Source: Clostridia bacterium
Lineage (GTDB): Bacteria; Bacillota; Clostridia; Christensenellales; Aristaeellaceae
NCBI GenBank assembly: GCA_017938695.1
Contig: JAGBBA010000049.1
Span: 1-64,000, forward strand
Reading direction: 5' to 3'
Length of the DNA stretch: 64,000 nucleotides
Part shown: one piece after another, positions 5,668 through 52,858 of the stretch
How the letters are laid out: each line of letters starts with the position of its first letter
How positions within the stretch are numbered: position 1 is the stretch's first letter
Notes under the pieces: model-generated
Seen by the model: the letters and a program-made list of their open reading frames with translations, nothing else
What the model was told of the DNA's origin: nothing
The model's database searches: none
Made by a program: the position numbers and the translations under genes

Positions 5668-5692
5668 CCAAAGCAAGAAAGAAGGTTCCTCC

Positions 5693-7435
5693 ATGAAGCA
5701 GCTTATGCTGGGCAACGAAGCCGTTGCCCGCGGACTTTACGAAGCCGGATGCTCCTTTGTGTCCAGCTACCCCGGCACCCCCTCCACGGAGATCACCGAG
5801 GCCGTGGCCAAGTATCAGGAGGTCTACGCAGAGTGGGCCCCCAATGAGAAGGTCGCCATGGAGGCTGCCTTCGGTGCCTGCCTGGCTGGCAAGCGCAGCT
5901 TCTGCGGCATGAAGCACGTGGGCCTGAACGTGGCCGCCGACCCCCTGTTCACCATCGCCTACACCGGCGTGAATGCCGGTATGGTCATTGCTGTGGCGGA
6001 TGATGCAGGCATGCACTCCTCCCAGAACGAGCAGGACTCCCGGCACTACGCCCGCGCCGCCAAGATCCCCATGCTGGAGCCTGCCGACTCCGCCGAGGCC
6101 CTGGCCTTTACCAAGCTGGCCTACGATATTTCCGAAAAGTTCGATACACCCGTGCTGGTGAAGATGTGCACCCGCGTGGCCCACTCCCAGAGCGTGGTGG
6201 AGCCCGCTGAGCGCGTGGAATTCTCCAAGACCTACGAGAAGAATCCCCAGAAGTATATCATGATGCCTGGCAACGCCAAGCGTCGCCACCCCTTTGTGGA
6301 AGAGCGCACCAAGGCCCTGGCCGACTGGGCCGAGACCGCTGACATCAACCGCGTGGAAGAGGGCAGCGACCACAGCCGCGGCATCATCACCTCCTCCACT
6401 TCCTACCAGTATGTGAAGGAAGTCTGCGGCGACAAGTACCCCGTGCTGAAGCTGGGCATGATCTGGCCCATGCCGGAAAAGAAGATCCGCGACTTCGCCG
6501 CTTCTGTCGACGAATTGGTCGTGGTCGAGGAGCTGGACAGCTTCATCGAAGCCCACTGCCTGAGCCTGGGACTGAAGGTCACCGGCAAGGATACCTTCCC
6601 CTGCATTGACGAGTTTTCCCAGAACCTGGTGGCTGCCAAGCTGAACGCCGCCGTGCCCGAGACCGGTGCCAAGGTGGCGGATATGATCCCCGCCCGTCCC
6701 CCGGTGATGTGCGCCGGCTGCCCCCACCGCGGTCTGTTCTACACCCTGGCCAAGAACAAGATCACCGCGCTGGGCGATATCGGCTGCTATACCCTGGGTG
6801 CTGTGCCGCCCCTGGGCGCGCTGGACACCACCATCTGCATGGGTGCCTCCATTTCCGGTGCTCACGGCTTCACCAAGGCGCAGAATGGTGCTGCCGACAA
6901 CAAGACCGTGGCCGTCATCGGCGACTCCACCTTCATGCACTCCGGCATCACAGGCCTGGTGAACGTGGCCTACAACGAGAGCAATGCCACCATTATCATT
7001 GTGGACAACTCCATCACCGGCATGACCGGCCACCAGCAGAACCCCACCACCGGCTTCAACCTCAAGGGCGACCCCTGCACGAAGATCGACCTGGAAACCC
7101 TCTGCCGCGCCGTGGGCATCCGCCGGGTGCGCGTGGTGGACCCCTACAACCTGGCCGAAACGGAAACCGCCATCAAGGAAGAGCTGGCTGCTCCCGAGGC
7201 CAGCGTGATCATCAGCCGCCGTCCCTGCGCGCTGCTGAAGTACGTCAAGCACAACAAGCCCGTCCGGGTGGAAAGCGATAAGTGCCGCTCCTGCAAAATG
7301 TGCATGAAGATCGGCTGCCCCGCCATTTCCATGAAGGACAACAAGGCTACCATCGACAATACCCTGTGCACCGGCTGCGGCGTGTGCGCCCAGCTTTGCA
7401 AATTCGACGCCATCCAGGCCGCAAAGGAGGATTGA
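5693..7435 (+). CDS. iorA: Indolepyruvate:ferredoxin oxidoreductase, alpha subunit
   Basis: A 580-residue thiamine-diphosphate subunit that, with IorB, converts aryl 2-oxoacids (indolepyruvate, phenylpyruvate) plus CoA to arylacetyl-CoA and CO2 while reducing ferredoxin. The pyrimidine-binding half opens with SSYPGTPSTEI (about residue 24). The thiamine-diphosphate half has CAGCPHRG, GDIGCYTLG (about 361) and GDSTFMHSG. The tail (about 530-575) is a ferredoxin domain with CRSCKMC and CTGCGVCAQLC. Its first cluster motif reads CxxCxxCxxxxC rather than the canonical CxxCxxCxxxCP. Length and order match IorA. It is translationally close to iorB, 2 bases away. The reaction can run in either direction in anaerobes. 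Confidence 0.95.
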   Translation: MKQLMLGNEAVARGLYEAGCSFVSSYPGTPSTEITEAVAKYQEVYAEWAPNEKVAMEAAFGACLAGKRSFCGMKHVGLNVAADPLFTIAYTGVNAGMVIAVADDAGMHSSQNEQDSRHYARAAKIPMLEPADSAEALAFTKLAYDISEKFDTPVLVKMCTRVAHSQSVVEPAERVEFSKTYEKNPQKYIMMPGNAKRRHPFVEERTKALADWAETADINRVEEGSDHSRGIITSSTSYQYVKEVCGDKYPVLKLGMIWPMPEKKIRDFAASVDELVVVEELDSFIEAHCLSLGLKVTGKDTFPCIDEFSQNLVAAKLNAAVPETGAKVADMIPARPPVMCAGCPHRGLFYTLAKNKITALGDIGCYTLGAVPPLGALDTTICMGASISGAHGFTKAQNGAADNKTVAVIGDSTFMHSGITGLVNVAYNESNATIIIVDNSITGMTGHQQNPTTGFNLKGDPCTKIDLETLCRAVGIRRVRVVDPYNLAETETAIKEELAAPEASVIISRRPCALLKYVKHNKPVRVESDKCRSCKMCMKIGCPAISMKDNKATIDNTLCTGCGVCAQLCKFDAIQAAKED

Positions 7436-7437
7436 CC

Positions 7438-8010
7438 ATGCAGACGAAAAACATCATGATCGTGGGCGTGGGCGGCCAGGGCAGCCTGCTGGCATCAAAG
7501 CTTCTGGGCCGTCTGCTGCTCACCAAGGGCTATGACATCAAGGTAAGCGAAGTGCATGGCATGAGCCAGCGCGGCGGCAGCGTGGTGACCTATGTGCGCT
7601 TTGGCGACAAGGTGTACTCCCCCGTCATCGACAAGGGCGAAGCGGATTACATCGTTTCCTTCGAGCTGCTGGAGGCTGCCCGCTGGACCGAATACCTGCG
7701 CAAGGGCGGCAAGATCGTTACCAACACCCAGCAGATCAACCCCATGCCCGTCATTACCGGCGTGGCGGAATATCCCGCCGACCTGGCCGAAAAGATGCAG
7801 GCCGCCGGTATCCAGGTGGACGCCTTCGACGCCCTGAGCCTGGCCGAACAGGCTGGCTCCGCCAAGGCCGTGAACATCGTCCTGATGGGCCACCTGTCCC
7901 GAAACTTCGACTTCACCCTGGAAGAGTGGCTGGACGCGATTGAGAAATCCGTGCCCGCCAAATTCCTGGAGATGAATAAAAAAGCGTTTATTCTTGGCCG
8001 AGAAGCCTAA
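7438..8010 (+). CDS. iorB: Indolepyruvate:ferredoxin oxidoreductase, beta subunit
   Basis: A 190-residue gamma-type 2-oxoacid oxidoreductase domain. It shows VGVGGQGSLLASKLLG at the amino terminus, EVHGMSQRGGSVVTYVRFG, and YIVSFELLEAAR, all typical of IorB, which completes the IorA active site. The ATG at 7438 follows the iorA stop by two bases, and AAAGGAGG lies inside the end of iorA, so the two subunits are probably made in equal amounts. In-frame codons upstream belong to iorA overlap and are not used. Confidence 0.95.
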   Translation: MQTKNIMIVGVGGQGSLLASKLLGRLLLTKGYDIKVSEVHGMSQRGGSVVTYVRFGDKVYSPVIDKGEADYIVSFELLEAARWTEYLRKGGKIVTNTQQINPMPVITGVAEYPADLAEKMQAAGIQVDAFDALSLAEQAGSAKAVNIVLMGHLSRNFDFTLEEWLDAIEKSVPAKFLEMNKKAFILGREA

Positions 8011-8043
8011 TCGCAACCCGACCACACAAAGGAGTGACCTGGT

Positions 8044-9342
8044 ATGCCAAATTACTATCAGCCTGAGATCGAAACCGCGTCCCGCGAGCAGATCCTGGCC
8101 TGGCAGAACGAACGTCTTGTCAAGCAGGTACAGCACGTGTGGAACAACGTCCCCTACTACCGCCAGAAGATGGAAGAGAAGGGCGTGACCCCTGATGACA
8201 TCAAGGGTGTCAGCGACCTGCACAAGCTGCCCTTCCTCACCAAGGCAGACCTGCGCGATGCCTATCCCTACGGCCTGATGGGCAAGCCCAAGAGCGAGTG
8301 CGTGCGCATCCAGTCCACCTCCGGCACCACCGGCCGCCGCGTGGTGGCCTTCTACACCCAGCACGACATCGACCTGTGGGAAGACTGCTGCGCCCGTGCC
8401 ATCGTGGCCGCTGGCGGCACCAAGGACGATGTGGTGCAGGTGGCCTACGGCTATGGCCTGTTCACCGGCGGCCCCGGCCTGAACGGCGGCTCCCACAAGG
8501 TGGGCTGCCTGACCCTGCCCATGTCCTCCGGCAACACCGAGCGTCAGCTCCAGTTTATGACCGACCTGGAGGCCACCATCCTCTGCTGCACCCCCTCCTA
8601 TGCCGAATACCTGGCCGAAACCGTCCATGAGCAAGGCCTGCGGGATAAGATCAAGCTGAAGGCCGGCATCTTCGGTGCCGAAGCCTGGAGCGAGGAGATG
8701 CGCCGGGATATCGAGAAGAGCCTGGGCATCAAAGCCTATGACATTTACGGCCTGACCGAAACCTCCGGCCCCGGTGTGGCCTACGAGTGCTCTGAGCAGA
8801 CCGGCATGCACATTAACGAGGATCACTTCATCGCCGAGATCATCGACCCCGAAACCGGCGAAGTGCTGCCCGAGGGCTCCAAGGGCGAATTGGTCTTCAC
8901 CTCCATCACCAAGGAGGCCTTCCCCCTGCTGCGCTACCGCACCCGCGACATCTGTGTGCTGACCCGCAAGCCCTGCTCCTGCGGCCGCACCCATGTGAAG
9001 ATGTCCAAGCCCATGGGCCGCAGCGACGACATGCTGATCATCAAGGGCGTGAACGTATTCCCCTCCCAGATCGAAACCGTTCTTCTGGAGCAGGGCTACC
9101 CCGCCAACTACCAGATCGTCGTGGATCGCGTGAACCATTCCGACACCCTGGAAGTTATGGTGGAAATGGCCCCCGACAAGTTCTCCGACTCCCTGGCCGA
9201 TATCGCCGAGGAGGAGAAGAAGCTGGTGGCCGCCCTCAAGACCATGCTGGGCATCTACGCCAAGGTGCGCATCGTTTCGCCCAAGAGCATCACCCGCTCC
9301 GAAGGCAAGGCCGTGCGTATCATTGACAAGAGAAAGATTTAA
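8044..9342 (+). CDS. paaK: Phenylacetate--CoA ligase (PaaK type)
   Basis: A 432-residue adenylate-forming ligase that makes arylacetyl-CoA from arylacetate, ATP and CoA. Motifs include the phosphate loop STSGTTGRR (about residue 90), YGLTETSGPG, a cysteine-rich patch CVLTRKPCSCG (about 303-314) and GRSDDMLIIKGVNVFPSQIE. Length is usual for the family. In many anaerobes this gene sits next to iorAB and an ACT protein, as here. The ligase and oxidoreductase could together interconvert arylacetates and arylpyruvates or conserve energy during aromatic amino-acid fermentation. Start ATG at 8044 with AAAGGAG about ten bases upstream. Confidence 0.92.
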   Translation: MPNYYQPEIETASREQILAWQNERLVKQVQHVWNNVPYYRQKMEEKGVTPDDIKGVSDLHKLPFLTKADLRDAYPYGLMGKPKSECVRIQSTSGTTGRRVVAFYTQHDIDLWEDCCARAIVAAGGTKDDVVQVAYGYGLFTGGPGLNGGSHKVGCLTLPMSSGNTERQLQFMTDLEATILCCTPSYAEYLAETVHEQGLRDKIKLKAGIFGAEAWSEEMRRDIEKSLGIKAYDIYGLTETSGPGVAYECSEQTGMHINEDHFIAEIIDPETGEVLPEGSKGELVFTSITKEAFPLLRYRTRDICVLTRKPCSCGRTHVKMSKPMGRSDDMLIIKGVNVFPSQIETVLLEQGYPANYQIVVDRVNHSDTLEVMVEMAPDKFSDSLADIAEEEKKLVAALKTMLGIYAKVRIVSPKSITRSEGKAVRIIDKRKI

Positions 9343-41114: not shown

Positions 41115-42494
41115 TTACTGATTATCCTCCAGGATAGCCTTGGCGGCCTTCTTGCCTGCGCCCATGGCCAGGATCACCGTGGCCGCGCCGGTCACCGCGT
41201 CGCCGCCGGCATACACCTTGGCTTTGCCGGTGCGGCCGTTCTCGTCGGCGGTAATGCCGCCCCACTTCTCCGTGGGCAGGTCGGGGGTGGTCTTCTTGAT
41301 CAGCGGATTCGGGCTGTTGCCGATGGCCACGATCACCGTTTCCACGGGCAGTTCAAACTCGCTGCCGGGCTTGGCGACCGGGCGGCGGCGGCCCTTGGCG
41401 TCGGGCTCGCCCAGCTCCATCTCCACGCAAGTCATGGCGCGAACGAAGCCGTCCTCGTCGCCCAGGATCTCGGTGGGGTTGGTCAGCAGGCGGAAGTGGA
41501 TGTCCTCCTCCTTGGCGTGGTGGATTTCCTCGTTGCGGGCGGGCATTTCTTCCTCGCCGCGGCGGTATACGATGGTCACATCGGCACCCAGACGCTTGGC
41601 GCAGCGGGCGGCGTCCATGGCCACGTTGCCGCCGCCGATCACCGCCACCCGGCTGCCCACCTTCACGGGGGTGTCATGCTGGGGGAAGGTGTAGGCGCGC
41701 ATCAGGTTGATGCGGGTCAGGAACTCGTTGGCGGAATACACGCCGCACAGGCTCTCGCCGGGAATCTTCTGGAAATTGGGCAGGCCCGCACCGCTGCCGA
41801 TAAACACAGCGTCGTTGCCTTCCTCCAGCAGCTCCTCCACGGTCATGGCGCGGCCCACCACCGCGTTGGTCACGATCTTCACGCCCAGGGCGCGGATGTT
41901 GTCGATCTCCTTCTGCACCAGGGCTTTGGGCAGGCGGAACTCGGGGATGCCGTACATCAGCACGCCGCCGGGGGTATGCAGGGCTTCGTAGAGGGTCACG
42001 TCCCAGCCAGCGCGGGCCAGGTCGGCAGCGCAGGTCAGGCCGGCAGGGCCGGAGCCCACCACCGCAGCCTTCTTGCCGCAGGCAGGGGCGGTTTCGGCAG
42101 AAACCTTGCCCTCGTTCATGGCGTAATCAGCAGCGAAGCGTTCCAAGCGGCCAATGCCCACCGGATCACCCTTGATGCCGCGCACGCACTTGCTCTCGCA
42201 CTGGGTTTCCTGGGGGCAGACGCGGCCGCAGATGGCAGGCAGGCCGTTCTGGGTGCGGATCACCTCATACGCGCCCTGGAAGTCGCCCGCTTTGATTTTG
42301 GCGATGAAGTTGGGGATGGGCACATTCACCGGGCAGCCACTGACGCAGGGTGCATTCTTGCAGTTCAGGCAACGGTCGGCTTCCTCCATGGCGATCTCCT
42401 TGGTGTAGCCCAGGGCAACCTCCTTGAAGTTACCTGCGCGCACCACCGGATCCTGCTCGGGCATGGCGTTCTTTTGCAAAGACATGTTAGGCAT
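41115..42494 (-). CDS. nfnB: NfnB-type large subunit (GltD/GltA-like flavoprotein)
   Basis: 459 residues of the glutamate-synthase small-subunit family. An amino-terminal iron-sulfur domain has CLNCKNAPCVSGCPV and CGRVCPQETQCESKC for two 4Fe-4S clusters. The FAD loop is VVGSGPAGLTCAADLARAGW, and a second dinucleotide loop VIGGGNVAMDAARCAKRLG binds NADP(H). Paired with the overlapping NfnA-like gene, it most probably forms NADH-dependent ferredoxin:NADP oxidoreductase, which couples ferredoxin and NADH oxidation to NADPH formation. No glutamate synthase large subunit is nearby, so a GltD role is less likely. RBS GGAGG nine bases before the ATG. Confidence 0.88.
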   Translation of the reverse strand: MPNMSLQKNAMPEQDPVVRAGNFKEVALGYTKEIAMEEADRCLNCKNAPCVSGCPVNVPIPNFIAKIKAGDFQGAYEVIRTQNGLPAICGRVCPQETQCESKCVRGIKGDPVGIGRLERFAADYAMNEGKVSAETAPACGKKAAVVGSGPAGLTCAADLARAGWDVTLYEALHTPGGVLMYGIPEFRLPKALVQKEIDNIRALGVKIVTNAVVGRAMTVEELLEEGNDAVFIGSGAGLPNFQKIPGESLCGVYSANEFLTRINLMRAYTFPQHDTPVKVGSRVAVIGGGNVAMDAARCAKRLGADVTIVYRRGEEEMPARNEEIHHAKEEDIHFRLLTNPTEILGDEDGFVRAMTCVEMELGEPDAKGRRRPVAKPGSEFELPVETVIVAIGNSPNPLIKKTTPDLPTEKWGGITADENGRTGKAKVYAGGDAVTGAATVILAMGAGKKAAKAILEDNQ

Positions 42495-43341
42495 GGCTAC
42501 GAACCTCCCCCGTCAAGCGGCACTTGTGCAGCTTTTCTTTGGCCTTGGCTTCCTCGGGCCGGAACATCCGGCTGCGGGCGATGGCCTCATCCCAGTCCAC
42601 CAGGTGGCCGTCGAAGTCGGGGCCATCCACACAGGCAAACTTGGTTTCGCCGCCCACGGTGATGCGGCAGCCGCCGCACATGCCCGTGCCGTCGATCATA
42701 ATGGGGTTCATGCTCACGATGGTCTTCACGCCGTAGGGCTTGGTGAGGTTGCACACGGCACGCATCATGGGCAGCGGGCCGATGGCGATCACCACATCGT
42801 ACTGTTCGCCGGCCTTCAGCTTTTCCTCCAGTGCCTGGGTCACAAAGCCCTTGTTGCCGTTGGAGCCGTCGTCAGTCATGATGGTCAGGTCGGAGCAGGC
42901 GGCGGTGAGCTCTTCCTGGAGGATGATCAGATCCTCATTGCGGAAGCCCACGATGAGATCCACCTTCGCGCCAGCTTCGTGCAGGGCCTTGGCCTGGGGA
43001 TAAGCGATGGCCACGCCCAGGCCGCCGCCGATCACCGCCGCGCGGGTGATGCCCTCGGTATGGCTGGGCTCGCCCAGGGGGCCGACAAAGTCCAGCAGGG
43101 CGTCGCCTTCGTTCAGGGTGTCAAGCTTTTCGGTGGTATAGCCCACCTTCTGGAAAATGATGGTCACGGTGCCAGCCTCCCGGTCGTAACCGGCGATGGT
43201 CAGGGGCACACGCTCGCCCTCTTCATCAATGCGGAAAATAATAAACTGGCCGGGCTGAGCCTTGCGGGCCACCAGGGGGGCTTTGATCTCCATCAGGGTG
43301 ACCGTGTCGTTCAGCACGCGTTTTTTTACGATCGGAAACAT
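42487..43341 (-). CDS. nfnA: NfnA-type small subunit (FAD/NAD-binding, 2Fe-2S)
   Basis: 284 residues of the ferredoxin-reductase/dihydroorotate-dehydrogenase-electron-transfer family. An FAD domain (about 1-100, with VPLTIAGYDREAGTVTIIFQKVG) precedes an NAD domain (AAVIGGGLGVAIAYPQAKAL) and a carboxy-terminal cysteine group MCGGCRITVGGETKFACVDGPDF for a 2Fe-2S cluster. This set is that of NfnA, where the flavin is thought to bifurcate electrons. It overlaps nfnB by eight bases, so subunits are coupled. Divergent from the Mrp-like operon over a 183-bp region with two near-consensus promoters. Confidence 0.88.
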   Translation of the reverse strand: MFPIVKKRVLNDTVTLMEIKAPLVARKAQPGQFIIFRIDEEGERVPLTIAGYDREAGTVTIIFQKVGYTTEKLDTLNEGDALLDFVGPLGEPSHTEGITRAAVIGGGLGVAIAYPQAKALHEAGAKVDLIVGFRNEDLIILQEELTAACSDLTIMTDDGSNGNKGFVTQALEEKLKAGEQYDVVIAIGPLPMMRAVCNLTKPYGVKTIVSMNPIMIDGTGMCGGCRITVGGETKFACVDGPDFDGHLVDWDEAIARSRMFRPEEAKAKEKLHKCRLTGEVRSHA

Positions 43342-43446: not shown

Positions 43447-43475
43447 TTGACTTATCTAATAGGAAGGACTACAAT
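43447..43475 (+). promoter_or_regulatory. Sigma-A promoter of the Mrp-like operon
   Basis: TTGACT (43447-43452), a spacer of 17 bases, TACAAT (43470-43475), 49 bases before mrpE. About 46 bases separate it from the divergent nfnAB promoter, space enough for a shared regulator site. Confidence 0.78.
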
Positions 43476-43524: not shown

Positions 43525-43998
43525 ATGTTCTTTCTTCTTTTTGCATTCTGGATCATCCTCAACGGCCGCTGGACGACTGAGATCGCCATCGTGGGCGCAG
43601 TGGTCAGCGGACTTTTGTACCTGTTCATCTGCAAATTCATGGATTACTCGCCCAAAAAGGAATGGGCCTGCATCCGCCGCCTGCCCCGGGCCATCGGCTA
43701 CGGCATTTTCCTGGTGGGCGAGATTTTCAAGTCCGCCTGGCAGACCATCAAGTTCATCTGGTCGCCCAAGGAGATCGTGCAGCCGGAGGTCACGTCCTTC
43801 CACACCAGGCTGCGCACCGATGCTGGCAAGGTGATCCTGGCCAACTCCATCACCATGACCCCCGGCACCATCACCGTGGACATCCGGGACGACCTGATGC
43901 TGGTGCACTGCCTGGACGAAAGCCTGGACGCTGACCTGGAAGGCTCCGAAATGGAAAAGCGCATCATGAAGCTGGAAGGAGGCTATGACCATGACTGA
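43525..43998 (+). CDS. mrpE: Mrp/Mnh antiporter subunit E (MbhA-like)
   Basis: 157 residues: two or three helices at the amino terminus (FFLLFAFWIILNGRW) followed by a cytoplasmic region. LANSITMTPGTITVDI is the family signature. It is an accessory subunit of Mrp cation/proton antiporters and of Mbh hydrogenases. The ATG at 43525 has GGGAGG seven bases upstream; in-frame codons farther upstream run through the promoter. First gene of the ten-gene operon; it overlaps mrpF by eight bases. Confidence 0.88.
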   Translation: MFFLLFAFWIILNGRWTTEIAIVGAVVSGLLYLFICKFMDYSPKKEWACIRRLPRAIGYGIFLVGEIFKSAWQTIKFIWSPKEIVQPEVTSFHTRLRTDAGKVILANSITMTPGTITVDIRDDLMLVHCLDESLDADLEGSEMEKRIMKLEGGYDHD

Positions 43999-44299
43999 AG
44001 CATACAGCATGCTGTATAACATCACCCTGGGCATTCTGGGCCTGTTCCTTTTGGCCTGCCTGACCCGCGCCATCATCGGCCCCCGCATCGCCGACCGGCT
44101 GATCGCCATCAACATGATGGGCACCTTGATCGTGATCATCATCTGCATCCTGGCGTTCCTGATGGGCGAGGGGTACCTGGTGGACGTAGCCATCATCTAT
44201 GTGATGCTGTCCTTCCTGGCCGTGGTGCTGCTGACCAAGATCTACATGGGCGTTTACCACGAAAAACGCCGCCGCGAGGAGGGAAACAACGATGCTTGA
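43991..44299 (+). CDS. mrpF: Mrp/Mnh antiporter subunit F
   Basis: 102 residues, three helices, with the family core TRAIIGPRIADRLIAINMMGT and DVAIIYVMLSFLAVVLLTK. Of two nearby ATGs, the second (43991) is eight bases from GGAGG and preferred. Overlaps both neighbours by eight bases, a sign of coupled translation of small subunits needed in fixed ratio. The carboxy tail KRRREEGNNDA is cytoplasmic. Confidence 0.88.
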   Translation: MTEAYSMLYNITLGILGLFLLACLTRAIIGPRIADRLIAINMMGTLIVIIICILAFLMGEGYLVDVAIIYVMLSFLAVVLLTKIYMGVYHEKRRREEGNNDA

Positions 44300-44645
44300 T
44301 ACGATCCGCTTCATCATTTCCCTTCTGCTGACGCTGGCAGGCCTGTTCGTGCTGCTCAGCGGCGTGGTGGGCATTTTCAAATTCAAGTATTCCCTCAGCC
44401 GCATCCATGCCGGTGCCCTGTTTGATACCGCCGGTATCGTGCTGATGGTGCTGGGTGTGATCGTAGGCCAGGGCTTTGACCTCACCTCCCTCAAAATGCT
44501 GATCATCATCGGCATTCTGTGGCTGACCAGCCCCGTGTCCGGCCACCTGATCGGCCGACTGGAGATCACCATCAACGACGAACTGGAAAAGGACATGGTG
44601 GTCATGGACGAGCGCATGGTGCGCCATGAAAAGGAGGGTGACTGA
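44292..44645 (+). CDS. mrpG: Mrp/Mnh antiporter subunit G
   Basis: 117 residues, three helices. The family pattern VGIFKFKYSLSRIHAGALFDTAGIVLMVLGV is clear. MrpG is essential for assembly of Mrp complexes. GAGGAGG lies before the ATG within mrpF. The charged tail after about residue 95 is cytoplasmic. Confidence 0.88.
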   Translation: MLDTIRFIISLLLTLAGLFVLLSGVVGIFKFKYSLSRIHAGALFDTAGIVLMVLGVIVGQGFDLTSLKMLIIIGILWLTSPVSGHLIGRLEITINDELEKDMVVMDERMVRHEKEGD

Positions 44646-44647
44646 GC

Positions 44648-44926
44648 ATGGAGTTTCTGAATATCATCCTGCTGGTGTTCATCATCGTCTGCGCCGTTTC
44701 CGTGTCGCTGACCAAGAACCTGTTCACCTCCATCGTGATCTTCATGAGCCAGTCCCTGGCCATGAGCGTAATCTGGATCATGCTGGAATCCCCCGACCTG
44801 GCGGTGACCGAGGCCGCCGTGGGCGCGGGCATTACGAGTTTGCTGCTGTTTGTGACGCTGAAGAAGATCCACGCCATCGACCAGCAGAAGAAGGGAGCGA
44901 CCAGCCATGGCGAAAATCAGGAATGA
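44648..44926 (+). CDS. DUF4040/MbhD-like membrane subunit
   Basis: 92 residues with about three helices and the MbhD/DUF4040 pattern SVSLTKNLFTSIVIFMSQSLAMSVIWIMLESPDLAVTEAAVGAG; the last part (ESPDLAVTEAAVGAGIT) is the most conserved stretch. In Bacillus-type Mrp this piece is the carboxy-terminal part of MrpA; here, as in Mbh, it is a separate gene. Starts two bases after mrpG and overlaps the next gene by 20 bases. Confidence 0.85.
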   Translation: MEFLNIILLVFIIVCAVSVSLTKNLFTSIVIFMSQSLAMSVIWIMLESPDLAVTEAAVGAGITSLLLFVTLKKIHAIDQQKKGATSHGENQE

Positions 44927-45926
44927 TTATGAACACAGCTGGTGGCCGCGCCTTCTGCAATGGCTGGAGGACGGCTCCACCCGCCTGGACGACGAACTGA
45001 CCGCGGAGATGGACGAATCCCGCGAAGGCCACCTGCTGCCCACCCACGAGGACGTGGCCGCCCACGAGGCCAAGCTGGAAGAGCGCCGCAACCAGAAGCT
45101 GGCGGACGAACTGGCCATGTACGCCCACGCCCACGAATGGACCCGCACCAAGGGTGCCAAGCTGGCCAACTGGGCCTACCGCATCATGTCGGTGGTGATC
45201 TGCGTCAGCATTATCTGGGTGCTGCTGCAAACCGCCGCCTACCTGCCCCCCTTCGGCTCCCCTGATAACCCCGTGAATAACGAGGTCAGCCAGCGGTACA
45301 TCGAAAAGGGCATGGAAGAAACCGGCGCGGTGAACATCGTGGCCGGTATGATCCTGGACTACCGCGCCTTCGACACCCTGGGCGAGAGCAACGTGCTGTT
45401 CATCGCCGCCTGCTCGGTGCTGATCCTGCTTCGCGTGTCCTCCGACAAGCACGACCCCACCTCCGTCCATCAGCTGGAAGTGGAAGCCGACGACCGCATG
45501 TATGAGCCCAAGAACGACATCATCCTCCAGCACACGGTGGCTTTCCTGGTGCCGGTAATCCTGCTGTTCGGCGTGTACGGCGTGATGAACGGCCACATAT
45601 CCCCCGGCGGCGGCTTCTCCGGCGGCGCCATCATGGGTGCCGCGCTGATCCTGTATCTGAACGCCTTTGGCTTCAAGCGCACCGAGCGGTTCTTCACCTT
45701 CAAGACCTTCAAAACGGTTTCTGTGTGCGCGCTGAGCTTCTATGCTATCAGCAAGGCGTATTCCTTCTTCACCGGTGCCAACCACCTGCATTCCTTCATC
45801 ACCCCCGGCACACCGGGCAAGCTGTTCTCCGCAGGCCTGATCCCCTATCTGAACATCGCCGTGGGCGCAGTGGTCTGCTGCACGATGTACGCCTTCTACA
45901 CCCATTTCCGGAAAGGAGATATGTAA
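44907..45926 (+). CDS. Fused MbhE-MrpB-like subunit with charged amino-terminal extension
   Basis: 339 residues in three parts. (1) About 95 charged, probably helical cytoplasmic residues (DDELTAEMDESREGHLLPTHED, EERRNQKLADELAMYAHAHE), not part of the known families. (2) A helix followed by an MbhE-like segment with PPFGSPDNPVNNEVSQRYIE and TGAVNIVAGMILDYRAFDTLGE (about 115-160). (3) An MnhB/MrpB domain, HTVAFLVPVILLFGVYGVMNGHISPGGGFSGG onward, with four helices. In Thermococcus Mbh, E and F are separate; in Bacillus the E part lies in MrpA. The fusion supports a single assembly. AAGGGAG precedes the ATG. Confidence 0.82.
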   Translation: MAKIRNDYEHSWWPRLLQWLEDGSTRLDDELTAEMDESREGHLLPTHEDVAAHEAKLEERRNQKLADELAMYAHAHEWTRTKGAKLANWAYRIMSVVICVSIIWVLLQTAAYLPPFGSPDNPVNNEVSQRYIEKGMEETGAVNIVAGMILDYRAFDTLGESNVLFIAACSVLILLRVSSDKHDPTSVHQLEVEADDRMYEPKNDIILQHTVAFLVPVILLFGVYGVMNGHISPGGGFSGGAIMGAALILYLNAFGFKRTERFFTFKTFKTVSVCALSFYAISKAYSFFTGANHLHSFITPGTPGKLFSAGLIPYLNIAVGAVVCCTMYAFYTHFRKGDM

Positions 45927-45929
45927 GCC

Positions 45930-46295
45930 ATGAGTTTGCACAATTACGAAGAAATGGCCGCCATGATCCTCTTCGGCATTGGTTTCACCACCCTGCTTTT
46001 GCAGAAGAACCTGATCAAGAAGATCATCGGCTTCTCCATGATGGACTCCGCCATCTATCTGTTCCTGGCAGCTAAGGGCTATATTGAAGGCCGCACCGCC
46101 CCCATTGTGGTGGACGGCGTCACCAGCATGGAAGCCTACATCAATCCCATCCCTGCAGGCCTGGTGCTGACCGGCATCGTGGTGAGCGTATCCGTCACCG
46201 CGCTGATGCTGGCCCTCACCGTGCGCCTCTACCGCCGGTATCACACCCTGGATATCGACCATATCACAGCCCTGGTGCGGAAGGAGGAGCAGTAA
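45930..46295 (+). CDS. mrpC: Mrp/Mnh antiporter subunit C (NuoK-like)
   Basis: 121 residues, three helices, NuoK-like. LIKKIIGFSMMDSAIYLFLAAKG matches the NuoK/MrpC helix with the conserved glycine, and AYINPIPAGLVLTGIVVSVSVTALMLAL forms the third helix. Starts three bases after the previous gene with GGAGAT upstream. The glutamates used by NuoK for protons are partly missing, as is normal for MrpC. Confidence 0.85.
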   Translation: MSLHNYEEMAAMILFGIGFTTLLLQKNLIKKIIGFSMMDSAIYLFLAAKGYIEGRTAPIVVDGVTSMEAYINPIPAGLVLTGIVVSVSVTALMLALTVRLYRRYHTLDIDHITALVRKEEQ

Positions 46296-46298
46296 GCC

Positions 46299-47798
46299 AT
46301 GGAACTTTGGCAATCCATCCCCTTTGCGTGCATCCTGCTGCCCCTGGGCTCCGCTGCCATGACCAGCGTGCTCAAGGGCCGCTGGGCACGGTACTGGACC
46401 TTCTGCGTGCTGACCGTTGTCACCGGGCTGTCCGCCGCCTTTGTAGTGCTGATGAACGGCTACGAGGGCAGCTACACCTACATGATGGGCCACTACGCTG
46501 CCCCCTGGGGCAATGAGATCCGCGCCGGTATGCTGGAGGCGGTCACGGCCCTGTTCTTCAGCATGATCATGCTGCTGTCCCTGATGGGCGGCCTGAAGAA
46601 GATCGACGAGCACATCCTGGCCGACAAGCAGAGCCTGTACTACGTCATGCTGTTGCTCCTTACCGCCGCGCTGATGGCCCAGGTCTACACCAACGACCTG
46701 TTCACCGCCTATGTGTTCCTGGAGATCATGACCATCGCGGCCTGCTCGCTGATCACCGCCCGTACCAAGGGCCGCACGCTGGTGGCTGCCACCCGGTACA
46801 TGATCATGAACCTGCTGGGCTCCGGTTTGTTCCTGCTGGGCATCACCCTGCTGTACGACCTGTCCGGCCACCTGCTGATGAGCAACATCAAGCAGGCTGT
46901 GGCCTCCCTGGCCGCCACCGGCCAGTACCAGATGCCCCTGACGGTGGTGATCGCCATCATGAGCATCGGCCTGGGCATCAAGAGTGCCCTGTTCCCCTTC
47001 CACACCTGGGTGCCGGATGCCTACGGGTACTCCACCCCCACCTCGGCAGCGGTGCTGTCCTCCCTGGTAAGCAAGGGCTACATCTTCCTGCTGATCAAGA
47101 TCTACTACCGCGTCATCGGCCTGGAGGTCATTGCCTCCACCGGCATTCTGGATATTCTCTTCGGCTTTGCCCTGGTGGGCATGGTGATGGGCTCCATCTC
47201 CGCCATCCGCCAGAGCGACATCCGCCGGATGATCGCCTTCTCCTCCGTGGCCCAGATTGGCTACATCTTCATGGGCATGGGCCTGGGCAACGAGCAGGGC
47301 ATGACTGCCGCGGTCTTCCACATCTTTGCCCACTCGGTTTGCAAATCCATGCTGTTCCTGGCTGCCGGCGGCTTGGCTGATGCCTCGGGCAACAGCAAGC
47401 AGTTCCGCGACCTGCGCGGCTCTGGCTTCCGCAGCCCCATCGCAGGCGTGGCCTTCACCATCGGCGCACTGAGCATGGTGGGCTTCCCCTTCCTGGGCGG
47501 CTTCACCAGCAAGATGAACTTCGCCCTGGCAGCCATGAACGGCGGCGACATCCGCATGATGCTGGTGCTGATTGTGCTGGTGATCTCCACCTGGCTGAAC
47601 ACCATCTACTTCCTCAAGACGGTGATCACCATCTACCGCAAGCCCCTGGAGGGTGCGAACTACCCCGTGGAAAAAGGCCGCCGTGGCTTCTGCTTCAATG
47701 CGTCGCTGGTGCTGTTTTCCGGGGTGAACGTGGCACTGGGCCTGTTCTCCCAGGGTATTATCGAGGCCATCACCCGCGGCCTTGGCATCTTTGGCTAA
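46299..47798 (+). CDS. mrpD: Proton-conducting antiporter-like subunit 1 (MrpD)
   Basis: 499 residues, about 14 helices, of the NuoL/M/N-MrpA/D family that carries protons or cations. The key charged residues are present: E142 in VFLEIMT (helix 5), K228 in GIKSALFPFHTWVPDAY (helix 7) and K259 in LVSKGYIFL (helix 8), plus a lysine in FTSKMNF (helix 12). It is adjacent to mrpC as in Bacillus and Mbh clusters, so it is assigned MrpD/MbhH. Confidence 0.9.
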   Translation: MELWQSIPFACILLPLGSAAMTSVLKGRWARYWTFCVLTVVTGLSAAFVVLMNGYEGSYTYMMGHYAAPWGNEIRAGMLEAVTALFFSMIMLLSLMGGLKKIDEHILADKQSLYYVMLLLLTAALMAQVYTNDLFTAYVFLEIMTIAACSLITARTKGRTLVAATRYMIMNLLGSGLFLLGITLLYDLSGHLLMSNIKQAVASLAATGQYQMPLTVVIAIMSIGLGIKSALFPFHTWVPDAYGYSTPTSAAVLSSLVSKGYIFLLIKIYYRVIGLEVIASTGILDILFGFALVGMVMGSISAIRQSDIRRMIAFSSVAQIGYIFMGMGLGNEQGMTAAVFHIFAHSVCKSMLFLAAGGLADASGNSKQFRDLRGSGFRSPIAGVAFTIGALSMVGFPFLGGFTSKMNFALAAMNGGDIRMMLVLIVLVISTWLNTIYFLKTVITIYRKPLEGANYPVEKGRRGFCFNASLVLFSGVNVALGLFSQGIIEAITRGLGIFG

Positions 47799-47825
47799 AC
47801 CAATCTGATCGTAGGAGGCATTGCC

Positions 47826-49316
47826 ATGATCGGTTCCTGGTATCTGCTCATTCCCGTGCTGCTGCCCATCCTGTCGGGCCTGGCGGTATGCTTTCTCAAG
47901 CCCTTTGAGGATATGAAAAAGCGCAATCTCTTCACCCTGTGCGTGATGGTGGTGAACGTGCTGGCCCTTTTGCCGGTGATCTTCTCCGGCGAGATGACCC
48001 TGACCCTGTTCACCCTCAGCGATTCCCTGCCCATCTTCCTGCACACGGACACCCTGGGCAAGATCTTCGCCGCGGTGATGGCCTTTGTGTGGGCTGCCGC
48101 CGGTGCGTATTCTTTTGAATACATGGCCCACGAGGAAAACCAGAAGCGGTATTACAGCTTCTACCTGTGCACCCTGGGCGTACTGATGGCCCTGTGCTTT
48201 GCAGGCAGCATCGTCACCTTCTACATGTTCTACGAGTTCATGACCCTGCTCACCGTGCCCATGGTGATGCACACCGGCAAGAAGGACGCTGTGGCCGCTG
48301 GCATCAAGTACCTGATCTACTCCGTGGTGGGTGCTTCCCTGGCCCTGCTGGGCATCTTCCTGCTGAGCCCCTATGTGTCCACCCTGGCCTTCACGGTGGG
48401 CGGCGTGCTGGATGCCGCCAAGACCGCCGGGCACGAGGGCTTCATCCTCACGGTGACCTTCCTGATGATCATCGGCTTTGGCACCAAGGCCGGTATGTTC
48501 CCCCTGCACGGCTGGCTGCCCACGGCCCATCCGGCAGCTCCCTCCCCTGCCAGCGCGGTGCTGTCCGGCATCATCACCAAGGCAGGCGTGCTGGGTGTGA
48601 TCCGCCTGATGTACTGCTTTGTGGGTGCCGAGTTCCTGCGGGGCTCCTGGGTTCAGACGGCTTTCATGTGCCTGACGCTGTTCACGGTGTTCATGGGTTC
48701 GCTGCTGGCCTTTAAGGAAGGCGGCCTGAAGAAGCGTCTGGCCTACTCCTCCGTAAGCCAGCTGAGCTATGTGCTGCTGGGCGTAGCTTCCATGCATCCC
48801 CTGGGCTTTACAGGCGCGCTGCTCCATGTGGTGGCCCACTCCCTCATCAAGGATACCCTGTTCATGTCCGCCGGTGCCATCATCCACAAGACCGGCAAAA
48901 CGCAGGTCGCCGAGCTGGAAGGCATCGGCAAGCAGATGCCTGTGGTGATGTGGTGCTTCACCCTGGCCAGCGTGGGCCTGGTGGGCATTCCGCCCTGCCT
49001 GGGCTTCGTCAGCAAGTGGTATCTGGCCCAGGGCGCACTGAACATGACCGGCGTGACCTCCTTCTTCTCCTGGCTGGCCCCTGCCGTGCTGCTGATCTCT
49101 GCCCTGCTGACGGCCGGCTACCTGCTGCCCATCAGCATCCGCGGCTTCTTCCCCGGCCACGACGAGGAGGGCAAGCTGAAGTTCTTTGAGAAGTGCGAGC
49201 CCACCCACGTGATGCTGATCCCCCTGATCCTGCTCACCGCCCTGTCCATCCTGGCCGGCATGTTCCCGGGCAGCCTGGTGGAGCTGTTCTCCGCCCTGGC
49301 TGACGTGCTGATGTAA
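47826..49316 (+). CDS. Proton-conducting antiporter-like subunit 2
   Basis: 496 residues, second NuoL/M/N-type ion-translocating subunit. Charged sites: E137 (MFYEFMT), K221 (GTKAGMFPLHGWLP), K252 (IITKAG) and a helix-12 lysine in FVSKWYL. It has its own AGGAGG behind a 27-base spacer. Clearly homologous to its neighbours but quite divergent, so not a recent duplicate. Exact family role (MrpA-like versus MrpD-like) is open. Confidence 0.88.
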   Translation: MIGSWYLLIPVLLPILSGLAVCFLKPFEDMKKRNLFTLCVMVVNVLALLPVIFSGEMTLTLFTLSDSLPIFLHTDTLGKIFAAVMAFVWAAAGAYSFEYMAHEENQKRYYSFYLCTLGVLMALCFAGSIVTFYMFYEFMTLLTVPMVMHTGKKDAVAAGIKYLIYSVVGASLALLGIFLLSPYVSTLAFTVGGVLDAAKTAGHEGFILTVTFLMIIGFGTKAGMFPLHGWLPTAHPAAPSPASAVLSGIITKAGVLGVIRLMYCFVGAEFLRGSWVQTAFMCLTLFTVFMGSLLAFKEGGLKKRLAYSSVSQLSYVLLGVASMHPLGFTGALLHVVAHSLIKDTLFMSAGAIIHKTGKTQVAELEGIGKQMPVVMWCFTLASVGLVGIPPCLGFVSKWYLAQGALNMTGVTSFFSWLAPAVLLISALLTAGYLLPISIRGFFPGHDEEGKLKFFEKCEPTHVMLIPLILLTALSILAGMFPGSLVELFSALADVLM

Positions 49317-49326
49317 GGAGGCCCCT

Positions 49327-50796
49327 ATGCTGCTATTGATTACGCTGCTGGTGCCGCTCATCAGCGGTGCGCTGCTGCCGCTGTTCCGGTTCAAAACGCT
49401 GAAGAGCCGCGGCATCTATGTGGAGGCGGCGGTGATCCTCACCTCCATCCTGACCTGGGTGCTGCTGCTCACCCGCAGCGATGCACGCATCGACCTGTTC
49501 ACCATCATGGACGGGCTGACCCTGTCCTTCAAGGTGGACGGCATGAGCTGCATCTTCGCGGGCCTGGTGAGCATTCTCTGGCCCCTGGCGTCCCTCTACG
49601 GCTTTGAATACATGACCCATGAGGAACGCCCCAACACCTTCTTTGCCTTCTACACCATGACCTATGCCGTCACCCTGGCGGTGGCCATGGCGGCGAACCT
49701 GTTCACCCTCTACGTTTTCTACGAGTGCCTCACCCTGATCACCCTGCCCCTGGTGGTGCACAAGCAGGACGCCAAGTCCATCCATGCTGGCCGGAAGTAC
49801 CTGTACTATTCCATCAGCGGCGCGGCCATGGCGTTCATTGCCCTGGTGTTCACCCTGCACTACGGTGCCACCACGGATTTCACCCTGGGCGGCATCCTGG
49901 ATATGACCAAGGTGGCCGGGCACGAGCATGTGCTGCACCTGGTGTTCCTGCTGGCCTTCATCGGCTTTGGCACCAAGGCGGCGGTGTTCCCCATGTTTGC
50001 CTGGCTGCCCGCTGCCTCCGTGGCTCCCACCCCTGTCACCGCCCTGCTGCACGCCGTGGCCGTGGTCAACGCCGGTGCCTATGCGGTGCTCCGCGTGATC
50101 TACTACGCCTTCGGTGCTGATTTCCTCTACGGCACCATTGCCCAGAGCATCGCCCTGGCCATTGCCTGCTTCACCATCGTGTTCGGCTCTGCCATGGCCG
50201 TGAAGGAGCAGCACTTCAAGCGGCGTTTGGCCTATTCCACCATTTCCAACCTGAGCTACATGCTCATGGGCGCGGCCCTGATGACCCCCTCCGGCATGGT
50301 GGGCAGCCTGAGCCACCTGGTCTGCCACGGCCTGATGAAGATCACCCTGTTCTACTGCGCCGGTGCCATTCTGGTGCGCACCGAACAGGAGTATGTGCAG
50401 GACCTGCGCGGCTTTGGCAAGGTGATGCCCTTCACCTGCGGCGTGATGCTCATTTCCAGCGTGGCCATGGTGGGCATTCCGCCCCTGGCTGGCTTCGTCA
50501 GCAAGTGGAACCTGCTCACCGCCGCGGCAGATACCGGCCTTGCCATGGGCACCGTCAGCGTGGCTGCGCTGATCATCTCCGCCGTGCTCACGGCCATCTA
50601 TCTGTTCACCGTGGCCATGCCCATGTACTTCCGTCCGCTGAACGAGGGCGTGTCCTTCTCCCAGGAGAACCGCGACCCCAGCTGGATGATGAAGCTGCCC
50701 CTGTTCATCCTCACCCTGCTGGTGATCGGCGTGGGCCTGTTCTCCCAGCCCCTGATCACCTTCCTGCGCCAGATTGCTTCCGGCGTGATCTTCTAA
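49327..50796 (+). CDS. Proton-conducting antiporter-like subunit 3 (divergent helix 8)
   Basis: 489 residues, third ion-translocating subunit. It keeps E133 (FYECLT), K217 (GTKAAVFPMFAWLP) and the helix-12 lysine (FVSKWNL). At helix 8, where subunits 1, 2 and 4 have lysine, it reads LLHAVAVVNAG, with His242 and Asn248, which is closer to the NuoL pattern. Its pathway may therefore differ in protonation. AAGGAGG lies before the ATG, and it follows subunit 2 by 10 bases. Confidence 0.88.
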   Translation: MLLLITLLVPLISGALLPLFRFKTLKSRGIYVEAAVILTSILTWVLLLTRSDARIDLFTIMDGLTLSFKVDGMSCIFAGLVSILWPLASLYGFEYMTHEERPNTFFAFYTMTYAVTLAVAMAANLFTLYVFYECLTLITLPLVVHKQDAKSIHAGRKYLYYSISGAAMAFIALVFTLHYGATTDFTLGGILDMTKVAGHEHVLHLVFLLAFIGFGTKAAVFPMFAWLPAASVAPTPVTALLHAVAVVNAGAYAVLRVIYYAFGADFLYGTIAQSIALAIACFTIVFGSAMAVKEQHFKRRLAYSTISNLSYMLMGAALMTPSGMVGSLSHLVCHGLMKITLFYCAGAILVRTEQEYVQDLRGFGKVMPFTCGVMLISSVAMVGIPPLAGFVSKWNLLTAAADTGLAMGTVSVAALIISAVLTAIYLFTVAMPMYFRPLNEGVSFSQENRDPSWMMKLPLFILTLLVIGVGLFSQPLITFLRQIASGVIF

Positions 50797-50812
50797 GAAA
50801 GGAGGCTTTTCC

Positions 50813-52858
50813 ATGGCGATCTTACCCATCCTGGTCTTTGGCCCCATGGTGATGGCAGCCGTGTGCTACCTGATCGGCCGCAAGTCCAAACAGGGCCGCG
50901 ACCTGGCTGTTGCCCTCACCGGCATGGCCACCTTCGCCCTTTGCGCACTCACCTGGAACAGCGAAGCCTCCTTCTCCCTGGAGGGCTTCTGCGGCCTGGG
51001 CCTGCACCTGAAGGTGGACGGCTTCCGCAGCCTGTACGCTTGCATCGCGGCCTTCATGTGGATGATGAGCGGCATCTTCTCCCACGAATATTTCGCCCAT
51101 TACCACAACCGCAACCGGTACTTCTTCTTCAACCTGATGACCCTGGGAGCCACCCTGGGCGTGTTCCTCTCCGATGATCTGTACACCACCTTCATCTTCT
51201 TTGAGATCATGTCCCTGACCAGCTACACCTGGGTCGCCCAGGAGGAGACCCCCGGTGCCATGCGCGCCGCCGCCACCTACCTGGCCGTGGCCGTCATTGG
51301 CGGTCTCACCACCCTGATGGGCCTGTTCCTCATCTGGCACGAGCTGGGCACGCTGTCCTTCACCGGCATCCGCGAGGTCATGGCCACCTATCAGGGCAAC
51401 ATCACCCTGGCGGTGTGGCTCACCCTGGTGGGCTTTGCCGCCAAGGCTGGCTTGTTCCCGCTGCACATCTGGCTGCCCAAGGCCCATCCCGTGGCCCCGG
51501 CCCCGGCCAGTGCGCTGCTCTCCGGCATTCTCACCAAGAGCGGCGTGTTCGGCCTGATCGTCATCTGCGCCAACCTGATGCCCCACAACGCGGCCTTCGG
51601 CAATGCGCTGTTGGTGCTGGCTGTGATCACCATGTTCCTGGGCGCGCTGCTGGCCCTGTTCTCCGTTGACCTCAAGCGCACCCTGGCCTGCTCCTCCATG
51701 AGCCAGATCGGCTTCATCACCGTGGGTCTTTCCATGATGGTGCTTCTGGGCGAGGATGGTTCCCTGGCCGCCTACGGCACCGTGATGCACATGATGAACC
51801 ACTCCCTCATCAAGCTGGTGCTGTTCATGGCCGCCGGCGTGGTGTACATGAACCTGCACAAGCTGGATCTGAACGAGATCCGCGGCTTTGGCCGCAAGAA
51901 GCCGGTGCTGCACATCGCCTTCCTGCTGGGTGCGCTGAGTATCGGCTGCATTCCGCCCATCGGCAGCGGCTACAACTCCAAGAGCCTTCTGCACGAAGCC
52001 ATTCTGGAACTGGTGCACCACCTGGAGGCCCACGGTCACTCCGCCCTGCCCTACCGCATCACAGAGATCCTGTTCCTGATCAGCGGCGGCCTCACCGTGG
52101 CTTACATGACCAAGCTGTACATCTGCATCTTCTGGGAAAAGAACCCCGTTCACCAGGAAAAGTACGACGGCATGAAGCACTACATCAGCAAGACCTCCGC
52201 GCTGGTGCTGCTGCTAAGCAGCCTTGTCCTCCCCTTCCTGGGCGCGCTGCCGGAGATGCTCATGACCCCCGTGGGCGTGCGCTCCGCAGCCTTCTTCGGC
52301 CAGGAGGTGCTGCACCATGAGATCCCCTACTTCGGCGCGGCCAACCTGATCGGTGCAGCCCAGAGCATCGGCATCGGCCTGGTGGTGTACTTCGCCATCG
52401 TTCGCCCCCTGCTGATGAAAAAGGTGGACGGCGTGCGCGTCTACGTCAACCGCTGGCCCGCCTGGCTCGACCTGGAGAACGCGGTGTACCGCCCCATTCT
52501 GCTGGACTTCCTGCCCGGCCTGATCGTGGGTGCGGTGCGCTTCCTCTGCGAGCTGCCGGAGCGCATCGTTCTCTTTCTGCGCGGCACCGCCTTCCGCAAG
52601 CGCCAGAAGCTGCACCCCGTGCCCGTGGGCAATCGCATCACCTACGGCATTGGCACCGCACTGAACAGCATCGCCGTCGCCCTGAACGCCACCTTCCTGC
52701 GCAACCGTCCCCTGCGTACCGACTTTGAGTACGTGCTGGACGCCTCCTGGCGCGAGCTGACCCAGGGCACCCACCGCATCACCGCCAGCATGTCCTTCGG
52801 CCTGCTGCTGATGTGCATCGGCCTGTTCATCACCTGCATGTACCTGCTGCGGCAGTGA
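50813..52858 (+). CDS. Proton-conducting antiporter-like subunit 4 (long, HyfB/MrpA-like)
   Basis: 681 residues, the longest of the four. The first 480 form the usual core with E131 (FFEIMS), K211 (AAKAGLFPLHIWLPKAHP) and K242 (ILTKSG); the helix-12 lysine lies in GYNSKSLL. The last 200 residues hold further helices and an amphipathic region (YRPILLDFLPGLIVGAVRFLCELPER), perhaps a lateral helix like that of NuoL but shorter. Its core is most like HyfB/MrpA-type subunits. Last gene of the operon, ending before a multi-hairpin repeat with a terminator. Confidence 0.87.
   Translation: MAILPILVFGPMVMAAVCYLIGRKSKQGRDLAVALTGMATFALCALTWNSEASFSLEGFCGLGLHLKVDGFRSLYACIAAFMWMMSGIFSHEYFAHYHNRNRYFFFNLMTLGATLGVFLSDDLYTTFIFFEIMSLTSYTWVAQEETPGAMRAAATYLAVAVIGGLTTLMGLFLIWHELGTLSFTGIREVMATYQGNITLAVWLTLVGFAAKAGLFPLHIWLPKAHPVAPAPASALLSGILTKSGVFGLIVICANLMPHNAAFGNALLVLAVITMFLGALLALFSVDLKRTLACSSMSQIGFITVGLSMMVLLGEDGSLAAYGTVMHMMNHSLIKLVLFMAAGVVYMNLHKLDLNEIRGFGRKKPVLHIAFLLGALSIGCIPPIGSGYNSKSLLHEAILELVHHLEAHGHSALPYRITEILFLISGGLTVAYMTKLYICIFWEKNPVHQEKYDGMKHYISKTSALVLLLSSLVLPFLGALPEMLMTPVGVRSAAFFGQEVLHHEIPYFGAANLIGAAQSIGIGLVVYFAIVRPLLMKKVDGVRVYVNRWPAWLDLENAVYRPILLDFLPGLIVGAVRFLCELPERIVLFLRGTAFRKRQKLHPVPVGNRITYGIGTALNSIAVALNATFLRNRPLRTDFEYVLDASWRELTQGTHRITASMSFGLLLMCIGLFITCMYLLRQ

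Follow-up and report, generated by a model that had tools for sequence, protein, structure and literature searches.

A group 3 Mrp-type operon with four antiporter-like subunits in Clostridia and its proposed role as a stand-alone cation/proton exchanger

Closest described systems and the ten-gene operon

The locus considered here is a ten-gene Mrp-type operon at positions 43525-52858 (+ strand) of a 64,000-nucleotide stretch of DNA from a member of the Clostridia (assembly GCA_017938695.1, contig JAGBBA010000049.1), the whole of which is hereafter called the window. It encodes four antiporter-like subunits of the NuoL/M/N type (pumps P1 to P4). Among the described systems, the stand-alone group 3 Mrp of Pyrococcus furiosus (mrpEFGBB'CD) has the same gene order, split MrpA carboxy-terminal domains and no redox module, but it is described with one pump rather than four and its MrpB is an MbhD-MbhE fusion (PMC8415708). 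The MBH and MBS complexes of P. furiosus have subunits D, E, G(C) and H in common with the operon, and MBS has the same MbhE-MrpB fusion, although both are described with catalytic and anchor subunits and with one or two pumps (PMC7684303, PMC8415708). The Bacillus-type group 1 Mrp shares all subunit domains and the essential residues, but its MrpA is one long protein and it has two pumps; the same source reports a three-pump cluster in Microbacterium TS-1 (mrpFGBCDDAE), diverse mrp clusters in anaerobes and a doubled mrpD in cyanobacteria (PMC5703873). The order EFG-D-E-B-C followed by pumps, as found here, recurs with three pumps on plasmid EAL2_808p of Peptoclostridium acidaminophilum, where MbhE and MrpB are separate genes, and in the haloarchaeon Halomontanus rarus, where one DUF4040 gene covers both D and E; no complex I-type catalytic genes are annotated beside either set. 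Four or more antiporter-like subunits are also described for complex I variants, namely Nitrospira 2M, the rhizobial green complex I (four) and that of Ca. Manganitrophaceae (five) (PMC9040806). These variants differ from the operon in being redox-driven. They are not known to have an Mrp cation module. The initial annotation had set the locus against two pumps in Mrp, one in Mbh and three in complex I, a comparison that omits both the three-pump Mrp clusters and the four- and five-pump complex I variants.

Judged by its sequence, the operon is best filed as a group 3 Mrp antiporter (MBH-type layout) that was apparently enlarged from the three-pump form. MrpE, F, G, B and C are all present and the MrpA carboxy-terminal domains occur as separate MbhD and MbhE pieces in irregular order; a single MrpA protein uniting a pump with MbhD and MbhE, as in the Bacillus-type group 1, is not encoded. 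Previously described elements are the gene order, the MbhE-MrpB fusion, Mrp sets of three pumps and complex I variants having four or five. New, as far as the open literature searched tells, are the four-pump stand-alone Mrp, the duplication from which it arose, with a histidine switch lost in one copy, and the occurrence of this form across Clostridia; a stand-alone four-pump Mrp without a redox arm was not found in the open-licence literature searched, which is not proof of absence. To call the locus an undescribed assembly, for which it had been named the strongest candidate, is too strong, since it belongs to a known, widespread type of which three-pump forms occur in P. acidaminophilum and H. 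rarus. The features of the locus, in window coordinates, are as follows.

43447..43475, + strand: promoter-like site TTGACT-17-TACAAT (motif scan)
43525..43998, + strand: mrpE; PF01899 (MNHE), E 8.3e-30
43985..44299, + strand: mrpF; PF04066 (MrpF_PhaF), E 1.9e-12
44292..44645, + strand: mrpG; PF03334 (PhaG_MnhG), E 8.3e-18
44648..44926, + strand: mbhD-like gene (MrpA carboxy-terminal part 1); PF13244 (MbhD), E 6.6e-18
44907..45926, + strand: fused mbhE-mrpB; PF20501 (MbhE) at residues 121-177, PF04039 (MnhB) at residues 206-328
45930..46295, + strand: mrpC (NuoK-like); PF00420 (Oxidored_q2), E 2.8e-21
46299..47798, + strand: pump P1, MrpD/MbhH-type, 499 aa; PF00361 (Proton_antipo_M)
47826..49316, + strand: pump P2, sister of P3, serine at the switch position of transmembrane helix (TM) 8, 496 aa; PF00361
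49327..50796, + strand: pump P3, MrpA/NuoL-type TM8 histidine H242 kept, 489 aa; PF00361
50813..52858, + strand: pump P4, HyfB-like, long carboxy-terminal extension, 681 aa; PF00361
52943..52974, + strand: terminator-like hairpin of 14 pairs, 3' of the last gene

All ten open reading frames (ORFs) exceed the curated Pfam cut-offs, and the distances between them range from -20 to +27 bases. The places, lengths and families initially assigned to mrpE, F and G, the MbhD-like gene, the fused mbhE-mrpB, mrpC and the four NuoL/M/N-type genes were borne out by the ORFs and Pfam, as was the splitting off of the MrpA carboxy-terminal parts, whose domains sit on separate genes. We consider it probable that the operon encodes one membrane complex, a group 3 Mrp cation/proton antiporter with four proton channels and no redox module.

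Pumps, cation module and the search for a redox partner

One of the key features of the operon is that all four pumps retain the residues expected of proton channels. When these residues were located by alignment with E. coli NuoL, NuoM and NuoN, the TM5 glutamate and the TM7 and TM12 lysines proved to be present in P1 to P4 in all orthologue rows that have a letter at the position (of 76, 73, 72 and 63 rows, respectively; all percentages given here refer to rows having a letter at that column, out of the stated row totals). In P1, E142, K228 and K405 are conserved in 100% and K259 in 99%; in P2, E137, K221 and K397 in 100% and K252 in 99%; in P3, E133, K217, H242 and K393 in 100%; and in P4, E131, K211, K242 and K390 in 100%. 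The TM8 lysine is kept in P1, P2 and P4, while the P3 of the window has asparagine there and a histidine six residues earlier. P1 therefore carries the TM5 glutamate and the TM7, TM8 and TM12 lysines of an MrpD-type pump, as do P2 and P4, and its closest solved relative is MbsH (6u8y_H, E 6.1e-48). The best NCBIfam match of P4 is NF005086 (HyfB), far under that model's cut-off, and the carboxy-terminal extension of P4 ends with a hydrophobic stretch at residues 655-681. The ratio of nonsynonymous to synonymous substitution rates (dN/dS) against four close relatives is 0.11-0.17 for P1, 0.09-0.15 for P2, 0.12-0.15 for P3 and 0.13-0.18 for P4; on these values, all four pumps are under purifying selection and none looks decayed.

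The cation module is similarly conserved. The closest solved relative of the MbhD-like protein is subunit D of MBH (6cfw_D), in which E55, conserved in 100% of 59 rows, aligns with residue 69, the proposed cation ligand of that subunit (PMC7419157). Likewise invariant are MrpC D39 (100%, 73 rows), MrpF R38 (100%, with D37 at 98%, 56 rows), MrpG P81 (100%, 55 rows) and MrpE T112-P113 (100%, 69 rows). Matched by motif, these would be the counterparts of the essential Mrp residues defined in Bacillus (PMC5703873), and the conserved acidic and polar residues of a group 3 cation path are thus found, by motif for the latter four proteins and by alignment for E55. The fused MbhE-MrpB protein has MBS as its closest solved relative (6u8y_E, E 1.9e-18). 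About 90 hydrophilic residues extend its amino terminus (window 44907-45180), a part that differs between genera.

A redox partner was sought both beside the operon and elsewhere in the genomes. The comparison set comprised 40 genomes, the source genome and 39 relatives. PF01058 (NuoB-type small subunit), which occurs in both complex I and group 4 hydrogenases, was found in none of the 40; PF00146 (NuoH-type anchor) was found in none over its cut-off, with one sub-threshold match (G029); and PF00374 was not found in the source genome, which is 87.5% complete. As positive controls, searches for PF01058, PF00146 and PF00374 match 11, 11 and 5 of 14 control genomes, respectively. The pairing of PF01058 with PF00146 that would mark MBH, MBS or another energy-converting hydrogenase was accordingly not found in the source genome, nor over the cut-offs in its 39 relatives, and NuoB, NuoH and the peripheral arm of complex I were not found, the likeness to complex I variants with four antiporter-like subunits being one of number only. 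Among seven other operon-carrying genomes, PF01058 was not found in six and is present in that of Eisenbergiella porci (L090). A phmmer search with 16 E. coli Nuo, Hyf and Hyc partner proteins gave no match in 100 stretches around the operon (19 from relatives, 80 from the named collection described below and the window's own), in agreement with the earlier statement that no hydrogenase, formate-hydrogenlyase or NADH-dehydrogenase peripheral gene is adjacent. The same search matched six of 40 more distant stretches: the matches are hydrogenase-type in L193 and L210, NuoE/F/G-like in L204 and L205, and Rnf in L214 and L216.

Distribution and origin of the four-pump form

Among the 40 genomes, the fused mbhE-mrpB gene is present in 20, comprising 16 of 18 from the same genus, 3 of 6 from the rest of the family and 1 of 16 from the rest of the order. 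The order E-F-G-D-EB-C-P1-P2-P3-P4 is identical in all 19 relatives that carry this gene, 13 of them with the complete set and six cut by a contig end, which argues that the ten-gene set is not a product of chance. A named genome collection yielded at least 594 confirmed stretches, the best 80 of which were analysed, some repeating genomes of the relative set. These 80 loci are mostly from metagenome-assembled genomes (MAGs) and isolates whose record titles name Lachnospiraceae or other Clostridia and, in many cases, an animal gut; they include Hungatella hathewayi DSM 13479, Butyricicoccus pullicaecorum, Eisenbergiella porci and Fusibacillus kribbianus. The exact ten genes occur in order in 63 of the 80 (59 clear of contig ends), while the remaining 17 consist of 13 cut by a contig end, two with P4 in two ORFs (L066 and L079), one with the fused gene in two, and one with five pumps. 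Counted by pumps, four were matched in 69 of these best loci (a few with a cut end) and five in one, and 10 end before P4. The five-pump operon, from a Clostridiales MAG (L086:15754-19843), has tandem P4 genes of 678 aa each.

At greater distance, the fused-gene model was matched in 55 of 391 genomes sampled from the class and in 141 of 398 from the phylum; the two samples partly overlap, and Mrp of other types accounts for many of these hits. Forty distant stretches (L182-L221) were hand-picked from these matches, and shares among them are not frequencies: 10 have four pumps, 20 have three and 10 have other layouts. Eight of the ten four-pump stretches are arranged P1-P2-P3-P4 (the P4 of L202 is cut by a contig end) and two P1-P3-P2'-P4 (L201, L213). 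The other layouts include classic Mrp with a long MrpA (L218, L219, L221), one-pump sets with adjoining NiFe-hydrogenase-type genes (L193, L210) and other or unclear architectures (L190, L199, L205, L209, L211). In L205, a single mrp set is surrounded by three closely related P4-type genes, one of which lies upstream of mrpE.

The origin of the additional pump can be approached from trees, which comprised 99 antiporter-like proteins and then, more carefully, 38. In both, the P2 proteins and the P3 proteins of the P1-P2-P3-P4 operons sampled fall into two clades that are sisters of each other, from which it follows that a single duplication probably predates the spread of this form; in the 38-protein tree their joint clade has a support of 100/99 and each clade holds all nine operons. 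The pair nests inside the three-pump P3 clade (29 rows, 100/99; inner fork 89/95), with an approximately unbiased test against all P3 forming one clade without P2 reaching p 0.046 only. By these trees, P2 and P3 are old duplicates that later specialised. A TM8 histidine is described as strictly conserved in MrpA and ND5/NuoL, where it works as a switch (PMC9568556), its NuoL counterpart being H254 (PMC4938563). This histidine is found in all rows of P3 from three-pump sets (5 of 5), of P3 from four-pump sets (14 of 14) and of long MrpA (4 of 4), while the same position is serine in 14 of 14 P2; judging by these rows, P3 keeps the MrpA-type TM8 trait even though it is not terminal in the gene row. 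The extra pump of L201 and L213 comes from a different lineage, P2', shared with L207, L208 and L215 (91/83 in the 38-protein tree), and hence the two four-pump layouts differ in origin, through either a separate gain or a loss elsewhere. Since the placement of E. coli NuoN, NuoM, HyfF and HyfD in the 99-protein tree is unsure due to long branches, we do not equate the pumps with particular complex I subunits.

Energetic setting, alternative explanations and gear ratio

No widely shared neighbour accompanies the operon, the commonest flanking family occurring in 11 of 122 loci in a survey of the longest ORFs, which can miss genes in GC-rich loci and missed some NfnA genes. Within the window, an NfnAB pair (41115-43341, minus strand) lies divergent from the operon. 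NfnAB is a redox enzyme, but a soluble one. Of the loci fetched, NfnA adjoins the operon in 12 of 15 from the same genus and in 0 of 4 from other genera, and it does so in 6 of the 80 named loci (partly overlapping sets); being divergent and so distributed, the pair was rejected as a member of the operon. Elsewhere in the source genome, rnfC-D-E-A-B lies on contig C9, separate from the operon contig. The rnfD and rnfE reading frames overlap there (L239:4252-9050), so that rnfG is not at its usual place in this cluster. The ATP synthase c subunit is also on contig C9 (L240:950-1237), about 11 kb beyond Rnf, and, compared by eye, has a glutamate where Ilyobacter has Gln32 together with an ETTGIY stretch, while Ser66 of the Fusobacterium rotor is replaced by threonine. 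A glutamate with an ETTGIY-like pattern is described for the two-carboxylate Na+ rotor of Fusobacterium (PMC3692424). ATP synthesis in the source organism is thus probably Na+-driven, in which case protons would need an exchanger.

The similarity of the operon to redox enzymes deserves consideration. If it encoded the membrane arm of a hydrogenase, formate hydrogenlyase or complex I kind of enzyme with its catalytic genes elsewhere, one would understand why the closest solved relatives of the MbhD-like protein, the fused protein, P1 and P4 all belong to MBH or MBS, and catalytic genes do occur beside a one-pump set in two of the 40 distant stretches (NiFe-type) or near the mrp genes in two others (NuoE/F/G-like). 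The empty searches for PF01058 and PF00146 across the 40 genomes and for PF00374 in the source genome nevertheless make such an arm extremely unlikely, even with PF01058 somewhere in one of seven other carriers; of the two interpretations originally offered, the stand-alone multi-pump cation/proton exchanger is supported and the arm of an unseen redox enzyme is not. Slightly less remote, yet still very unlikely, is an exchanger that works with or docks on Rnf as one sodium-energy unit. Such an association is suggested by four distant stretches from four families (L207, L214, L215, L216), in which rnfC-D-E-A-B lies upstream of a three-pump mrp set on the same strand (about 2300-8400 in operon orientation, the last match ending 52-644 bases before mrpE), and by the presence of Rnf in the source genome itself. 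There, however, it sits on a different contig, and when the five Rnf proteins were sought directly in 139 stretches they were found in those four only, none with a four-pump set. The initial annotation had also named decay of two of the four pumps as an outcome that would overturn it. The sister-clade relationship of P2 and P3 and the split P4 of two best loci could be read as signs of a working complex with only two or three pumps, but all four genes are intact in the window and the duplicates P2 and P3 keep their key residues at low dN/dS, leaving this explanation with next to no probability.

Several observations weigh against a single four-channel exchanger, the reading that we prefer. Among the matches listed, none of the ten proteins reaches the curated cut-off of any NCBIfam model, those for Mrp included, and the ten are hence divergent family members; as these models are narrow equivalogs and the Pfam cut-offs are exceeded, we do not take this shortfall as defining. 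Two of the 18 genomes of the genus yielded no operon, and the source genome (2,530,275 bases in 76 contigs) is incomplete; its only Proton_antipo_M matches are the four operon genes. Of the one promoter and one terminator first noted, the terminator has a counterpart in the strong 14-pair hairpin, but the promoter-like site is at chance level taken alone, the scan having found 3 such sites versus 2.9 expected. Lastly, the carboxy-terminal brace of P4 is not evidently longer where there are four pumps, with a median of 147 in four-pump operons (77 rows) versus 131 in the comparison rows (17) and p 0.09; only hand grouping (77 versus 10 rows) gives p 0.009, for rows that are not independent, and the P4 of the window has 135.

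Under the exchanger reading, several inferences can be made regarding mechanism. MrpE, F and G, MbhD, MbhE-MrpB and MrpC would form the cation path; P1 would adjoin it as MrpD and MbhH do, with P2, P3 and P4 presumably extending the row and P4 probably acting as the distal, bracing subunit. The complex would carry out electrogenic exchange of Na+, or another cation, against H+ and may thereby link the proton and sodium gradients in a cell possessing Rnf and probably a Na+-type ATP synthase rotor. In a published model, electrostatic driving is mutual between the cation, at a coupling site that adjoins MrpD, and the Lys/Glu pairs along the antiporter-like row, with two protons per Na+ for two subunits, and its authors consider that in complex I-like enzymes this unit can grow to three subunits or four; about 2 H+/Na+ is likewise thought likely for the two-pump Mrp (PMC7419157). 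Applied to the operon, one proton per channel per cation would amount to as many as 4 H+ for each Na+, such that the sodium-motive force would equal 4 x the proton-motive force at balance and the exchanger would run with H+ in and Na+ out under most conditions. That pump number sets the gear ratio, making this a high-gear Mrp of roughly four protons per sodium ion, is a tentative proposal that we regard as rather doubtful. Somewhat easier to entertain, if still short of an even chance, is the same exchanger in which the added pumps do not raise the H+/Na+ ratio and instead have a parallel, regulatory or structural function, or handle K+ or other cations. Published work on Mrp, MBH and MBS describes the ratio as unknown (PMC7684303), and the channels need not be equal, given that the histidine switch is present in P3 but not in P2. 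Moreover, proton export at low pH has been reported for the one-pump Pyrococcus Mrp (PMC8415708), a direction that a high ratio would disfavour; were the ratio not to rise with pump number, this direction (Na+ in, H+ out at low pH) would stay open to the complex of the operon. Against an unchanged ratio, the TM5 glutamate and TM7 and TM12 lysines in all four channels are expected if each moves protons, and purifying selection is alike across the four pumps.

Should the gear-ratio proposal prove true, a small proton-motive force would sustain a large sodium-motive force, the latter being n x the former at balance. There would then exist a natural series built on the same cation module, with one pump in Pyrococcus, two in Bacillus, three in Peptoclostridium, four in gut Clostridia and five in L086. 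Complex I poses the same central question, namely whether every antiporter-like subunit transports one proton, and a family with one to five pumps on a related cation module makes the question of ratio per pump testable. The widespread four-pump form may be a main link between the proton and sodium gradients of the Clostridia that carry it.

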